From contig NZ_KI519474.1 in the NCBI RefSeq assembly GCF_000482705.1, forward strand, positions 186,001-250,000: DNA of 64,000 nt, written 5' to 3'. The translations under genes were made by a program, and so were the position numbers. The DNA comes from Glycomyces arizonensis DSM 44726 (GTDB taxonomy: Bacteria; Actinomycetota; Actinomycetes; Mycobacteriales; Micromonosporaceae). Below the pieces are notes generated by a model. That model did not search any database. It saw only the letters and a program-made list of their open reading frames with translations, and was not told the origin of the DNA. This document shows, one piece after another, positions 29,181 to 60,346 of this stretch; the stretch's first letter is position 1; every line of letters starts with the position of its first letter.

Positions 29181-29241
29181 TATAGCCTATAACCGGACTA
29201 TAGGATATAAGTTATATCCTATAGTCCGGTTATAGGCTATA
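29181..29241. repeat. 61-bp AT-rich perfect palindrome (30-bp arms, 1-base centre)
   Basis: Left arm 29181-29210 and right arm 29212-29241 are exact reverse complements around a single G at 29211. The arms begin TATAGCCTATAACCGG and end ACTATAGGATATAA. It lies 38 bases after the stop of the unknown operon and 27 bases before a GTG start. A transcript would fold into a very long stem, and DNA cruciform extrusion is possible. The AT content is far from that of the genome. Confidence 0.85.
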
Positions 29242-54919: not shown

Positions 54920-54957
54920 CCGAGGCGCCGGGCTCGGGATCGGGCACGGCGCCTCGG
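54920..54957. terminator. Terminator after the small membrane protein
   Basis: Perfect 10-bp stem CCGAGGCGCC / GGCGCCTCGG with an 18-base loop, 6 bases after the stop codon. Confidence 0.6.
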
Positions 54958-54967
54958 CCTCCGCTCC

Positions 54968-55011
54968 GAATTCGGTAGATGCGATCCACCTAGATTCCAT
55001 CTACACAATCG
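54968..55011. repeat. Degenerate three-copy 15-bp-period palindrome array (left unit)
   Basis: Three 14-bp elements at 54968, 54983 and 54998 with an exact 15-base step: GAATTCGGTAGATG, GATCCACCTAGATT and CATCTACACAATCG. The second matches a unit of the array at 56765 at 12 of 14 positions. It lies 33 bases from the 3' end of the first AAA+ gene. Confidence 0.6.
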
Positions 55012-55044: not shown

Positions 55045-56493
55045 TCAAGCGGCCCAAGCCTGGAGAAGGTCATCCGGACCCCAGACCAGATCCGCTTCGA
55101 CGCCGTCCGCCACGCCCGCGAGGCTGACGACGGCCAGATCGGTCTCACCCGGCACGGCCCCGGGAACGCGAGAAGATCCGGCCACGAGCTTCTCGTAGTC
55201 TCGGCGGTCGAACGGCCTGCCCAGCCATTTGATGGAACCGGTGTAGAAGAGGTGCTTGGCGACCGGCCTCCGGTCCGCTCCCACCAGATCGATCTCGGGA
55301 TCGAAGCTCCGGGGCCACCAGCCCCCCACTTCAGTCGCCTCCGGCCAGGGGAACGCTTCGTGTATGCCCGCCACCACCAATGCCTCTCGCACCAGCGGCT
55401 CGATCGCCCGCCCGCGCCAACTCGTCCACTGGCGTTCGAATCGCGCGTACGCCAGATCGGGTCTGCCCCGCCGGGAGTCGGCGTGCGCGTCGACGAGCAC
55501 GGAATGGTAGAGGCGGAGGTAGCTGTCGGCGATGCGAAAGAGCTTGCCGCCGTTGCCGGGGCGGGTGGAGAGCGGCTCGTCGGCCGCTACGGCGCCCTTC
55601 TCGATCAGGCGATGCAGGATCGGAGTCAGGGAACCGGAGCTCAGCGGCTCGGTCGGACTCGCTCCCGCGACTTTGGCGATATTGCTGAAGGTGCGTGAGC
55701 CGTGGCCGATGGCGGCCAGCACTTGGCGAGTCCGGTCGGGTGCGGGGAACTCGGAGGACACCATCTGGGCCCCGACCGTGAACAGAGGACTTTCCGGGAG
55801 CTCGCATTGCTCGGCGACGTACTCCTCGGCGGTCGACCCCTGCTTCCAGGTCCTGCACAGGCCCGGGAAGCCGCCGGTGATGAGGTGGGCATCGATGGCG
55901 TCGGGCCCGGCGAGTCCGGTGAGCGCCGCCGTCTCCGTGGGGTTCAGGGGCCGCACCTGCATCTCTGCCGCGCGGCCGTAGAAGGGCCTGTCATAGCCGA
56001 GAAAGGCCCGCATCATGTGGATGTCGCTGCCGACGAGGATCAAGAACAGCGGTTTCTTCTTGAGGCGGCGATCCCACTCGGTCTGGAGCATTCCCTCCAG
56101 GCGCTGATCCCGCTGAAAGAGCCAGGGGAGCTCGTCGATGACGAGAATGGAAGGCGAGTCGTCCGGGATGGCGGTGGCGAGGAGGCGGAAAGTCTCGTGC
56201 CAGTCGTCCGGCACCGCCCTGGCGATATTTTGCGCGCCGGGCAGATCCGAGTTCCGGACCGACTCCAGCAGGCGGGTCATCGACTGTGTCGGGCTGACCC
56301 CCTGGTCTGCTTGGAACACGGCATAGGGAAGTCCGGACTCTTGGCAGAAGCGCTCCACGAGGTGGGACTTCCCGACCTGGCGGCGCCCTCGGATCGCGAC
56401 CGCGACTCCCTCTCCCCAGCGCTCGATGCGTTCCAGGTGGGATCTGAGGGCCTTGAACTCGCGCCTTCGGCCTACGAAGTGAGCATCTGACAT
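55045..56493 (-). CDS. AAA+ ATPase with DUF234/PD-(D/E)XK-like tail (copy 1)
   Basis: 482 residues. ATPase_2-type P-loop module: FVGRRREFKAL entry, Walker A GRRQVGKS (36-43), Walker B LVIDELPWL (D120/E121), sensor GSDIHMM (~155-161), DRPFYGRAAEMQVRPLNP. A winged-helix region (~250-320) follows, then a C-terminal DUF234-like domain with FDPEIDLVG (D398, E400, D402) and TGSIKWL (K422), a PD-(D/E)XK-like arrangement in which the E-x-K Glu is Ser. AGGGG stands 5 bases before the ATG, and the 38-bp palindrome begins 9 bases upstream. Clear homologue of the gene at 56858. Cellular role unknown. Confidence 0.82.
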   Translation of the reverse strand: MSDAHFVGRRREFKALRSHLERIERWGEGVAVAIRGRRQVGKSHLVERFCQESGLPYAVFQADQGVSPTQSMTRLLESVRNSDLPGAQNIARAVPDDWHETFRLLATAIPDDSPSILVIDELPWLFQRDQRLEGMLQTEWDRRLKKKPLFLILVGSDIHMMRAFLGYDRPFYGRAAEMQVRPLNPTETAALTGLAGPDAIDAHLITGGFPGLCRTWKQGSTAEEYVAEQCELPESPLFTVGAQMVSSEFPAPDRTRQVLAAIGHGSRTFSNIAKVAGASPTEPLSSGSLTPILHRLIEKGAVAADEPLSTRPGNGGKLFRIADSYLRLYHSVLVDAHADSRRGRPDLAYARFERQWTSWRGRAIEPLVREALVVAGIHEAFPWPEATEVGGWWPRSFDPEIDLVGADRRPVAKHLFYTGSIKWLGRPFDRRDYEKLVAGSSRVPGAVPGETDLAVVSLAGVADGVEADLVWGPDDLLQAWAA

Positions 56494-56502
56494 AGAAACC
56501 CC

Positions 56503-56540
56503 TGACGTAAAATCGTCTTACGTAAAACGATTTTACGTCA
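56503..56540. repeat. 38-bp near-perfect AT-rich palindrome (copy 1)
   Basis: Arms TGACGTAAAATCGT (56503-56516) and ACGATTTTACGTCA (56527-56540) are exact reverse complements; the centre CTTACGTAAA is palindromic except for its outermost pair. It sits directly upstream of the ribosome site of the AAA+ gene copy 1, where it could act as an operator or, as RNA, as a hairpin. A related 38-bp site follows copy 2. Confidence 0.85.
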
Positions 56541-56720
56541 GAAAGGTCGACGTGACCACGACAGCTGTGTCACCGGTCGCCAGTCGTCGGGCCTGAGGTG
56601 CTCGAACGTCTCCACGCGCAGCGCGTGGTCCTCCACGACCAAGGAGCACGGCGTCGCCAGCTTGCGCCGCCCCGGCAGCCAGCGCGGCCCGTCGCTGCAC
56701 GAGTGAGCCCCCGGGTCCAA
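56538..56720 (-). pseudogene. Internally deleted fragment of the ybjN-like gene
   Basis: The minus-strand translation [20 protein letters not shown], then RVETFEHLRPDD, repeats the start and the end of the intact gene at 58370 with the ~100 residues between them missing. Sequence identity with the intact copy is high on both sides of the join at ~56605-56625. The frame runs out in the 38-bp palindrome. It is a partial duplication, not a functional gene. Confidence 0.8.
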
Positions 56721-56764
56721 GCTCGGGGACCGGCCCCGGCCACCCCAGCCGAGCTGGTAGTACG

Positions 56765-56838
56765 CATCTTTCTAGATGGCATCTACCTAGATTTGATCTT
56801 GCTAGGATCCATCTACATAGATATCATCTACAAAGATG
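56765..56838. repeat. Five-copy 15-bp-period palindrome array
   Basis: Five 14-bp elements start at 56765, 56780, 56795, 56810 and 56825, exactly 15 bases apart: CATCTTTCTAGATG, CATCTACCTAGATT, GATCTTGCTAGGAT, CATCTACATAGATA, CATCTACAAAGATG. The first and last are perfect CATCT-N4-AGATG palindromes. The array ends 19 bases before the start codon of AAA+ copy 2, so it covers its promoter; a cooperative repressor or a protein filament site is likely. Confidence 0.88.
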
Positions 56839-56857
56839 ACGGAAGGCCGGTGACGCC

Positions 56858-58294
56858 GTGAAAGACGTATTCGTAGGGCGCTCGCGCGAGCTCGCCCAGC
56901 TGACCGACCGCCTTGACGCCGTTCGCGAGCGCGGCAAAGGCATAGCCGTGACGCTCCGGGGTCGCAGGCAGGTCGGCAAGTCGCGGCTCGTGCAGGAGCT
57001 CTGCGACCGCTCGGGCCTGCCCTACGTCTATCTGACCGCCTTCAAGGGCGCCTCATCGGCCGAATCGATCCGGCGTTTCCTCGCCGACATCCGAGAATCC
57101 AGCCTCCAAGAGGCCGGCGGCGTCGAGGCGATGGCGGCGGAGAACTGGATCGGGCTCTTCCGAACGCTCGACGACCTGGTCGCCGAGACGCCGGTCGTCA
57201 TCGTCCTCGACGAGGTGCCGTGGCTCGCCGAACAGGACGAGACCTTCGACGGCGCGCTCCAAGTGGCGTGGGACCGGTATCTGTCGCGCAAACCGGTGCT
57301 GCTGTGCCTGCTCGGCAGCGACCTCCACATGATGGAACGCCTCACCGCCTACGACCGGCCTTTCTACGGACGGGCCGACAACATGGAGCTCCGGCCGCTG
57401 AACCCGGCCGACACCGCCGACGCCACGGGGCTCGAAGGCGCCGACGCGGTGGAGGCACATCTCCTCTCGGGCGGCCTGCCGGGCATCCTGTCCCGTTGGC
57501 CCACAGGGATGCCGCCGCTGGAGCACCTGCGCGGCCAGGCGGCCGATCCGAGTGCGCCGCTCGTCAACGTTCCCGAGTCCGTACTGCTGGCGGAGTTCCC
57601 CTCGCCGGATACCAGACGCCGTGCGCTGGAGGCGATCGGGGCGGGCGAGCGAACGCAGTCGGGCATCAGCGCCGCGGCCGAGGGCATGGCCAGCGGCACC
57701 CTCGTGCCGGTCCTCGAACAGCTCAGGGCGGTGAAACGGGTGATCGACAGGGACGATCCGCTGTCCACCCGGCGGGGCAAGCCCGCGCTGTTCCGTGTCG
57801 CCGACGCAAACCTGCGGTGGTACTTGGCCATGGGCCGCGAGGCGCAGAGCCACGCCAGGCGCGGCCGCGGGGGACAGGCATTCGGCGTGATCGAGCGCCG
57901 TTGGTCGTCTTGGCTCGGCAAGGCCGTAGAACCGCTCGTGCGGGAATCACTGGAGATGGCGGCGCTCGCGGGCCGATTGCCATGGGAGGACGTCGAAGCC
58001 GTCGGCGGTTGGTGGAACCGGAGGTTCGACCCCGAGATCGACCTGGTCGGCGCGGACCGGGCCCGGATCGCCAAGGCGATCCGCTTCGCGGGCTCGGTCA
58101 AATGGCTGGAAGGCCCGTTCGACGGCCGCGACCTGGCGGCACTGGAGCGTTCGTCGCCGATGATCCCGGGATTCGAATCCGGCGAAGCCGGGCTCGTGGT
58201 GGTATCGCGCTCGGGCCTGAGCGACCGCGTCGACCGCGACCGGATCAGCACGGCGTGGGGACCGCAAGACCTGCTCGACGCCTGGCGCGAATGA
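56858..58294 (+). CDS. AAA+ ATPase with DUF234/PD-(D/E)XK-like tail (copy 2)
   Basis: 478 residues from GTG 56858, with GGAAGG 11 bases upstream. Same domain order as copy 1: FVGRSRELAQL, Walker A GRRQVGKS (35-42), Walker B IVLDEVPWL, GSDLHMM, YDRPFYGRADNMELRPLNPA, winged helix, and the C-terminal FDPEIDLVGADRARIAK...GSVKWLEGPFDGRD. By eye about 40% identical to copy 1, so these are old paralogues, not a recent copy. The family (ATPase_2 plus DUF234) is widespread in archaea and actinobacteria; its function is not established to my knowledge. Confidence 0.82.
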   Translation: MKDVFVGRSRELAQLTDRLDAVRERGKGIAVTLRGRRQVGKSRLVQELCDRSGLPYVYLTAFKGASSAESIRRFLADIRESSLQEAGGVEAMAAENWIGLFRTLDDLVAETPVVIVLDEVPWLAEQDETFDGALQVAWDRYLSRKPVLLCLLGSDLHMMERLTAYDRPFYGRADNMELRPLNPADTADATGLEGADAVEAHLLSGGLPGILSRWPTGMPPLEHLRGQAADPSAPLVNVPESVLLAEFPSPDTRRRALEAIGAGERTQSGISAAAEGMASGTLVPVLEQLRAVKRVIDRDDPLSTRRGKPALFRVADANLRWYLAMGREAQSHARRGRGGQAFGVIERRWSSWLGKAVEPLVRESLEMAALAGRLPWEDVEAVGGWWNRRFDPEIDLVGADRARIAKAIRFAGSVKWLEGPFDGRDLAALERSSPMIPGFESGEAGLVVVSRSGLSDRVDRDRISTAWGPQDLLDAWRE

Positions 58295-58310
58295 ACCTCA
58301 ACGGACTCCC

Positions 58311-58348
58311 TGAGGTAAATCGTTTTTACGTCAAAATGATTTACCTCA
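58311..58348. repeat. 38-bp AT-rich palindrome (copy 2)
   Basis: Arms TGAGGTAAATC (58311-58321) and GATTTACCTCA (58338-58348) are exact reverse complements around a 16-base centre containing TTTTTACGTCAAAA. Length and word content match the site at 56503. It begins 16 bases after the stop codon of AAA+ copy 2 and lies before the 3' end of ybjN. Confidence 0.8.
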
Positions 58349-58369
58349 GAAACACCTGGTCCCCGGCAC

Positions 58370-58846
58370 TCAATCCCGCGGCCTGAGGTGCTCGAAGGCC
58401 TCCAGGTTCCTCGTCGACTCGCCTCTGGCCAGGCGCCAGCGCCACTCCTCCCTGATCGAGCTCGCGAAGCCCAGTTCGAGGATCACGTTGAACGTCTCGT
58501 CGGCGGCCTCCAGCACCGCGCCCAGGACCCGGTCCAGCTCCTCGGGGTTCACCGACGCGAGCGGGAGCCGCCCTACCAAATGGACGTCGCCCGACTCGTC
58601 GATCGCGAACGCGACGGCGTACAGCCGCCCGTTGCGCCGCAGCAGCTCCGCCCACACCGCCTCGGCGTTCTCTTCCGGGCACCTGGCGACGAACGCCTCC
58701 ACGCGCAGCGCGTGGTCCTCCATCACCAGCGAGCACGGCGTCGCCAGCTTGCGCCGCCCCGGCAGCGCGAGCGCCACCGAGCGCGGCCCGTCGGCCCGGT
58801 ACTCCAGGCCCATCTCGTCCAATGCGGCGGTGAGGTTCCCTATCAC
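58370..58846 (-). CDS. YbjN domain protein
   Basis: 158 residues from GTG 58846, whose start shares 4 bases (GTGA) with the mshA stop. [37 protein letters not shown] and AYAVAFAID-type strands followed by [25 protein letters not shown] fit the YbjN fold, a two-domain chaperone-like family. The same gene follows mshA in mycobacteria (Rv0487-type), where its role is not known. Confidence 0.88.
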
Positions 58847-60144
58847 CGTCTCAGCGTAAGCGCCGCGCGATGCGCCTCGGCGGCGCGGAAGTACGCCGCG
58901 CGGATCCCCGCCGCCGTCGCGCTCCACGAGAACGCCGCCGCGTGCTCCCGCGCGCCCGACGCCAGGCGCGAGCGCAACTCGTCGTCGCCCAGGATCCGCC
59001 CGAGCGACGCGGCCCAGTCGTCGGCCGCATGCGAGTCGACCAGCAGCCCCGACCGCCCCTCGGCCACGGCCGTCGGCAGCCCGCCGACGCGCGCGGCCAG
59101 CACCGGCGTGCCACTCGCCTGCGCCTCCAGCGCCACCAGCCCGAACGACTCGTTGTAGCTCGGCACGGCCACCACGTCGGCGGCCCGGTACACCTGCGCC
59201 AGCGCCTCGCCCGAGCGCGGCGTCCGCCACTGCACCTGGTCGCCCAGGCCCAGCTCCCACGCCAGCTTCGGCAGCCAGTACAGGTCCGTGTTCGACGGCC
59301 CGCCCACGAACACCGGCACGACGCGATCGGCCAGCGCCGGATCGGTCTCGCGCAGCCGCGCCAGCCCGCGCAGCAGCACGTCCGGCGCCTTGGCCGGCTG
59401 GATCCGGCCCACGAACGCCACCACCAGCGCCTCCGGCGGCAGGCTCAGCGCCTCCCTGGCGGCCTGGCGGTCGCCGGGGGAGAAGACGTCCAGGTCCACC
59501 CCCGGATGCACCACGTCGACGCGCCTGGCGTCCGCGCGGTAGTGGTCCCGCAGCTCGGCGGCCTCGGCGGCCGTGTTGGCGATCAACAGGTCGGCCTCGG
59601 CGGCCACCTGCTCCTCGCCGATCACCCTCGTGTGCGGCTCGGGGTTGTCGCCCTCGGCCAGCTGCGCGTTCTTGACCTTCGCGAGCGTGTGGAACGTCTG
59701 CACCAGCGGCACGCCCCACCGCTCGGCCGCCACCCACCCGGCCTGGCCCGACAGCCAGTAGTGGGCGTGGATGAGGTCGTAGTGCCCGGCCGGGCGGTGC
59801 GCCTCGGCGCGCAGCAGCCCGCCGGTGAAGGCGCACAGCTGCGTCGGCAGATCGTTCTTGGACAGGCCCTCGAACGGCCCGGCCGGGAGGTGGTGGACGA
59901 GCACGCCGGGCGCGGCCTCGGCCGTCGGCGGCTCGTCTGAGCTGGTGGCGCGCGTGAAGATCTCGACTTCGACCCCGGCGCGGGCGAGTTCGGTGGCGGT
60001 GTTGAGGACGTAGACGTTCATGCCTCCGGCGTCGCCGGTGCCCGGCTGCGCCAGTGGAGAGGTGTGGACCGAGACCATCGCGACGCGTCGGATGCCCTGC
60101 TGCCGACATCGGGCCCGGAACACCGGGTTTCGCCTCTGCTGCAC
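58843..60144 (-). CDS. mshA: D-inositol-3-phosphate glycosyltransferase (mycothiol synthesis)
   Basis: 433 residues from GTG 60144, with GGAGAGGA 9 bases upstream; the further upstream frame runs through 33-bp tandem repeats and is rejected. GT4 enzyme: [23 protein letters not shown] is the MshA N-terminal signature, [12 protein letters not shown] binds the acceptor, [18 protein letters not shown] and the E-x7-E motif [15 protein letters not shown] bind UDP-GlcNAc. It joins GlcNAc to inositol-3-phosphate, the first step of mycothiol. Confidence 0.95.
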
Positions 60145-60247
60145 TTGTATCCGTCCTCTCCTGTGCTTGCGCGTCACGGCCGCCGGTAGGGGCGGGCCGT
60201 CATCGGCACAACGCGCGAAACCCCCGTAAACCTTCCGCTTTCGGCAG

Positions 60248-60346
60248 TGCTCATTTACCGCTCGCAAGCTTCGCGGTGGGTGCTCATTTACCGCTCGCAA
60301 GCTTCGCGGTGGGCGCTCATTCACCGCTCGCAGGTATCACGGTGGT
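60248..60346. repeat. Three tandem 33-bp repeats upstream of mshA
   Basis: Units start at 60248, 60281 and 60314. The first two are identical and the third is degenerate. Each holds ACCGC...GCGGT as a small inverted repeat around AAGCTT (in the first two). The 400-base gap 60145-60544 otherwise shows no gene; the divergent mshA and TetR-type promoters must lie in it. Confidence 0.85.

Follow-up and report, generated by a model that had tools for sequence, protein, structure and literature searches.

We analyzed a window of 64,000 nucleotides from Glycomyces arizonensis DSM 44726 (contig NZ_KI519474.1, positions 186,001 to 250,000; a genome of 49 contigs), in which two related palindromes, copy 1 and copy 2, lie beside two paralogous ATPase genes, gene 1 and gene 2. 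The palindromes belong to a type of 15-bp repeat array found ahead of homologous ATPase genes, and such an array probably serves as the DNA operator of the ATPase gene that immediately follows. The central features are the following, with the coordinates of the two copies taking in the outer C/G pair.

55045..56493, minus strand: gene 1, a STAND-type ATPase with a winged helix and DUF234, 482 amino acids
56858..58294, plus strand: gene 2, a paralogous ATPase, 478 amino acids
56502..56541, minus strand: copy 1, a 2.5-unit array of GTAAAAnnnTTTTAC with a 15-bp period; presumed operator of gene 1
58310..58349, no strand assigned: copy 2, an orphan gene-1-type array, 15 nt past the gene 2 stop and beside the 3' end of ybjN
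56766..56838, plus strand: the upstream array of gene 2, ATCTACnTAGATnnn, 15-bp period, degenerate

The products of both genes are STAND/Orc-like ATPases that contain a winged helix and DUF234, and both match the candidate family PDC-S27. The proteins share 46-47% identity. Pfam searches recovered AAA_16, ATPase_2 and DUF234 in both, with ATPase_2 slightly below its cut-off in each; DUF234 scored 28.5 bits in gene 2, above the cut-off of 22.5, and 22.1 bits, slightly below it, in gene 1. The PADLOC profiles of PDC-S27 matched both proteins (3.5e-25 and 1.3e-21, over residues 5-368 and 4-362). A structure model of the gene 2 protein, with a predicted local distance difference test score (pLDDT) of 91.3, has an AAA+/STAND fold with a winged helix; its closest matches were the PDB entries 2qen (Z 19.7) and 2fna (Z 19.2), with lower scores for Orc/Cdc6 and then NLR proteins. 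The C-terminal motif reads GS[VI]KW in all 22 sequences of alignment A1, the Glycomyces-type branch, and the consensus of the broader alignment A4 is GECKW. By our motif mapping, which is itself inferred, the (D/E)xK catalytic motif of an active PD-(D/E)XK nuclease is absent from the A1 branch. Since A1 reads GSVKW where A4 reads GECKW, this branch may have a changed nuclease site.

A first-pass annotation of this DNA had described the two copies as related palindromes with compensating changes on both arms, the first of them directly before gene 1, and had proposed a dimer site or an RNA/DNA hairpin. The description holds. In copy 1, 19 of the 20 mirror pairs are complementary, as are 18 of 20 in copy 2, and no other place in the window reaches 17 of 20 at zero loop. 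This is far above chance: over 100 simulated windows of 64 kb (first-order Markov), at least 17 pairs arose 0.01 times per window and at least 18 never. Of 40 positions, 12 are not the same in the two copies. They belong to seven mirror pairs, of which four are altered on both sides and still complementary, one is restored and two are broken. The ATG of gene 1 begins 8 nt after the end of copy 1. Each copy doubles as a direct repeat with a 15-bp step, with half-sites GTAAAATCGTCTTAC-GTAAAACGATTTTAC in copy 1 and GTAAATCGTTTTTAC-GTCAAAATGATTTAC in copy 2, flanked on each side by the edge of a further half-site. The unit is thus a 2.5-unit array of the 15-bp GTAAAAnnnTTTTAC and not a single 38-bp palindrome. 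The proposed dimer site was right in kind, but the actual layout is a tandem array. Our R2 array model, trained on a set that included copy 1, matched copy 1 with an E-value of 2.1e-9. The first-pass annotation overlooked this direct repeat, a similar stretch behind gene 1 (54974-55006) and the array ahead of gene 2, which differs in sequence from both copies yet shares their 15-bp period.

To place these arrays in a wider context, we collected homologs (query start within 25; 150 bits) at 161 places, 117 of which were kept after copy removal. An array-score matrix (a position weight matrix trained on the upstream set itself) exceeded 12 bits within 200 bp upstream of 82 of the 117 homologs, within the first 200 bases of none of the genes, and within 200 bp downstream of a single one, where the match was copy 2. 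Transposon terminal inverted repeats were rejected as a general reading because of this lone downstream array. Averaged over the 150 bp upstream of the 117 genes, the autocorrelation was 0.348 at lag 15 and 0.304 at lag 30, against a background of about 0.26; the downstream 150 bp showed the codon period only, with no further peak at lag 15. The strongest repeat period was 15 or 16 in 80 of the 82 TAGAT-type homologs, 30 of the 35 others and 11 of 13 distant ones, compared with 65 of 244 control genes, which were predicted from open reading frames (ORFs) and whose upstream regions are often coding, a property that raises lags 12, 15, 18 and 21. The distant set comprises 13 of 20 loci: six (L247, L249, L253, L033, L034 and L035 in our locus numbering) were dropped because the match starts inside the gene, and L004 because it is the same place as L246.

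Across these homologs, the half-sites are 6-7 bp long and form inverted pairs that recur every 15 bp, or every 16 bp in some clades, and the array ends close ahead of the start codon. Unit sequences differ among clades while the period of 15 or 16 is kept, and paralogs within one genome carry different arrays. Beyond the phylum, lag 15 was the top lag in 8 of 12 plasmid-borne homologs, hand-picked from 149 plasmid records (136 in another search); these came from Rhodothermus, Deinococcus, Rhizobium, Mesorhizobium, Sinorhizobium, Natronococcus, Halapricum and Halobaculum, and six of the eight had z of at least 4.1. A search of a viral collection with the A4 profile gave 16 loci, of which we examined 13 (L284 was left out, as were L270 and L271, apparent copies of L269); a top lag of 15 or 16 reached z of at least 3.7 in five of them. 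A phage-borne origin was considered and rejected: the A1 profile had no relative in the viral collection, and the 16 loci came from the broader A4 profile. As a separate observation, a second, GC-richer palindrome of the ACTACCGC type adjoins the array upstream of the ATPase gene in two Glycomyces genomes (L025:1349-1401, where it is 53 bp long and perfect, and L022).

The arrays coincide with predicted promoters. Between 54900 and 58900 we found two promoter-like matches, against 0.3 expected, both at the upstream arrays and on the right strands:

56530..56558, minus strand: sigma-70-like promoter match of gene 1, with the -10 (TAAAAT) inside copy 1
56799..56827, plus strand: sigma-70-like promoter match for gene 2, within the gene 2 array

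By these matches, which are to the consensus only, each site overlaps the predicted promoter of its own gene, as an autoregulatory operator should. The array also varies with the protein. Over 113 of the 117 homologs, array distance showed a small correlation, not corrected on the tree, with winged-helix distance when the other domains were partialled out (0.14, reached by none of 300 permutations), and none with DUF234 distance (-0.02). Judged from these sequence comparisons, it is most likely that the winged helix brings the ATPase to the promoter of its own gene, which the ATPase would then repress.

The first-pass annotation had also held that the symmetry itself is selected, and the alignment of sites bears this out. 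Over 67 arrays, 81.4% of the mirror cells pair; 75 cells are altered on both sides (46.9 when shuffled). The arrays score 0.171 for covariation, which falls to 0.109 on shuffling and to 0.031-0.060 with slid partners; all of these tests ignore the kinship of the sequences. Most of the mirror covariation lies in columns 12/25 (43 of 78 versus 27.4 shuffled) and 3/34 (43 of 78 versus 31.4). Columns 12, 25 and 27, each the base next to one of three half-sites, covary together, and this holds even for the pair 12/27, which is in direct orientation; a single protein that reads every half-site would leave such a pattern. Selection on symmetry within the array family is thus supported by the aligned sequences.

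Symmetry could also be kept by RNA, with a hairpin in the gene 1 leader and, at copy 2, a bidirectional terminator between convergent genes. As RNA, both copies do form very stable folds (z about -8), the intrinsic terminator pattern (a GC-rich stem followed by a T run) matches at copy 1, and over all columns GU-type mismatches outnumber AC-type ones (87 versus 54, p 0.007), the direction expected of RNA wobble. The GU excess, however, lies in spacer and edge columns, with about 42 GU against 36 AC elsewhere (summed from column counts), and the terminator scan was empty at copy 2. The would-be loop, TACGTA, is among the most conserved parts of the array, the direct repeat is superfluous for a hairpin, and columns 12 and 27, which would be unpaired in it, covary. 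With the predicted -10 inside copy 1, the transcript would hold only about half of that copy. When part of a longer array of the gene 1 type (L027) was folded, the hairpin was not significant (z -1.6), and Rfam gave no match at gathering score between 54500 and 60500. We consider the RNA form of the hairpin alternative unlikely.

We then scanned 22 Glycomyces genomes with sequence models of both array types (the R1 model was built from 67 of the 82 arrays). Array matches stand ahead of ATPase genes, with four exceptions: copy 2; a stretch behind gene 1 that has a counterpart behind a gene 1 relative in another genome (G013); a site (G003:C27) that precedes the opening codons of a gene-1-type ATPase gene in decay; and a weak match (G007:C1, E 0.5). 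No other array-bearing promoters were found in the 22 genomes, and there is no sign of a wider regulon. This distribution bears on the idea that the arrays are sites of an unrelated global regulator that controls these ATPases by chance. The idea draws on the fact that the ATPases are putative binders of the arrays, but arrays nearly confined to these ATPase genes, with different sequences for paralogs in one genome and a sequence that tracks the winged helix, make it quite unlikely.

Copy 2 calls for an account of the locus, whose further features are:

58370..58855, minus strand: ybjN-like gene, next to mshA, with copy 2 at its 3' end (the names ybjN and mshA for these neighbors are ones we presume to apply)
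56569..56694, minus strand: truncated ybjN duplicate next to copy 1, a fusion of its 3' end with an internal segment
54974..55006, no strand assigned: second TAGAT-type array stretch behind gene 1, with one at the same place in G013

Copy 2 does not serve gene 2 as an operator but is an array of the gene 1 type that has no gene of its own. The place downstream of ybjN varies among species. In one genome (G010), a 99-aa ORF directly follows ybjN with no ATPase between; two others (G013 and G001) have a relative of gene 1 after ybjN; G003 has an ortholog of gene 2 that is directed toward ybjN, with no gene-1-type array between; and many other species have other genes there. The relative of gene 1 found in G013 (L237, G013:C8:89378-90810) is split into two frames with its array intact, and a short remnant of the end of a gene-2-like ATPase lies beside ybjN in the same convergent orientation (L227, G015:C45:8894-9022). 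The simplest reading is that recombination joined both ATPase units and duplicated a stretch carrying the end of ybjN together with the gene-1-type array. On this reading, copy 2 would either have been duplicated from the gene 1 operator or have once served a third ATPase that is now lost. The 54974-55006 stretch is probably a relic of a lost gene-2-type copy. Copy 2 may be a relic or may still be bound by the gene 1 protein, itself a putative binder; that copy 2 has stayed symmetric would fit either a recent loss or some remaining function.

The two copies could instead be the ends of a mobile element, bounding a transposable unit with gene 2. They do flank 56542-58309, and the ybjN 3' locus holds different ATPase units across species and is empty in G010. 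We regard this as very unlikely, since 116 of the 117 homologs have no downstream array, the G003 ortholog of gene 2 lacks both copies, the array type goes with gene 1 and not gene 2, and what is duplicated at the flank is part of ybjN, the outcome expected of recombination. No gene-2 unit bounded by two matching arrays was seen in other species.

Three further repeats or hairpins in the window are recorded here in their own right. A GC-rich, terminator-like hairpin (54920-54957), also kept in G013, lies between a 99-aa ORF and gene 1. A 33-bp repeat occurs three times in tandem, two of them identical, upstream of the mshA-like glycosyltransferase gene (60247-60345). Finally, a 61-bp perfect AT-rich palindrome with a 1-base center (29181-29241) has a small gene cluster on one side and a GC-rich hairpin on the other, and no adjoining ATPase gene of the gene 1/gene 2 family was found.

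Taken together, the observations suggest the following model of autoregulation. The winged-helix domain of the ATPase would bind the half-sites as dimers, and neighboring dimers would stack every 15 bp, perhaps helped by the ATPase domain. Occupancy of the array would cover the promoter, so that the ATPase represses its own gene until a trigger or a change of nucleotide state. Copy 1 would be the operator of gene 1, and copy 2 a displaced array of the same type that stayed next to ybjN after recombination at this insertion hot spot had joined gene 1 to the gene-2 cassette.

Several points weigh against this model. A number of homologs have no well-defined array: the strongest period was neither 15 nor 16 in 2 of 82 TAGAT-type, 5 of 35 other and 2 of 13 distant homologs; lag 15 was not the top lag in 4 of the 12 plasmid homologs (Natrialba, Natronomonas, Haloarcula and Segatella); and only 7 of the 13 viral-contig loci had a top lag of 15 or 16, two of them weak. 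The helix linker (317-372) tracks the array equally well as the winged helix (0.149), in correlations that are small throughout, and the GU excess over all columns runs in the direction of RNA. Copy 2 is symmetric without a gene behind it, and a plain relic should lose symmetry over time. Finally, the ATPase may activate its gene instead of repressing it.

A broader generalization is tentative, and we hold it to be doubtful: PDC-S27-type ATPases of bacteria and archaea may each have a private promoter array whose 15-bp geometry is set by oligomerization and whose sequence drifts in step with that of the winged helix. At rest, the ATPase, an NLR-like immune switch, would sit on this array and stay silent there until infection or DNA damage removes it, and private sequences would stop paralogs from silencing one another. 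PDC-S27 proteins are counted among the common prokaryotic defense candidates whose mechanism is not established. A predictable putative site ahead of their genes names the DNA that each protein should bind, suggests how the ATPase gene stays off, and offers a ready assay for the ATPase trigger. The combination of fixed geometry and drifting sequence also provides a clean natural series for the study of protein-DNA coevolution.

The general rule, a fixed 15-bp geometry with free sequence, seems new; among the titles and abstracts of open-licence papers on operators of DUF234, PF01637 and STAND ATPases, no such arrays appeared. In the available part of its published account, PDC-S27 is a single-gene PADLOC candidate defense family, a putative system of ATPase and PD-(D/E)XK parts in which ATPase domains are fused to members of the PD-(D/E)XK superfamily; for most such candidate systems, experimental validation is pending (PMC12988326). 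The proteins of gene 1 and gene 2 match its profiles, with the defense role a candidate one. They differ in that the Glycomyces-type branch reads GSVKW for the usual GECKW, and that part of the account does not mention an operator array. With MalT and IniR they share a STAND ATPase with a DNA-binding role at a promoter, the binding being predicted here. IniR combines a MalT-like domain III with a DNA-binding domain at the C-terminus and, according to its abstract, regulates iniBAC exclusively (PMC5760070); by comparison, no such sugar domain was found in the gene 1 and gene 2 proteins, and the predicted site is their own promoter. The archaeal AAA+ ATPases SSO1545 and PAB2304 (PDB 2fna and 2qen) have the same fold over residues 1-327 (Z 19-20), with about 18-20% identity to the gene 2 protein in a comparison of protein fold only. 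In autorepressed toxin-antitoxin and partition operators, a self-encoded protein binds palindromic repeats over its own promoter. The ATPase arrays share the palindromic repeats over the gene's own promoter and the presumed binding by its own protein; they differ in being a single-gene unit with a fixed 15-bp geometry and a freely varying sequence.
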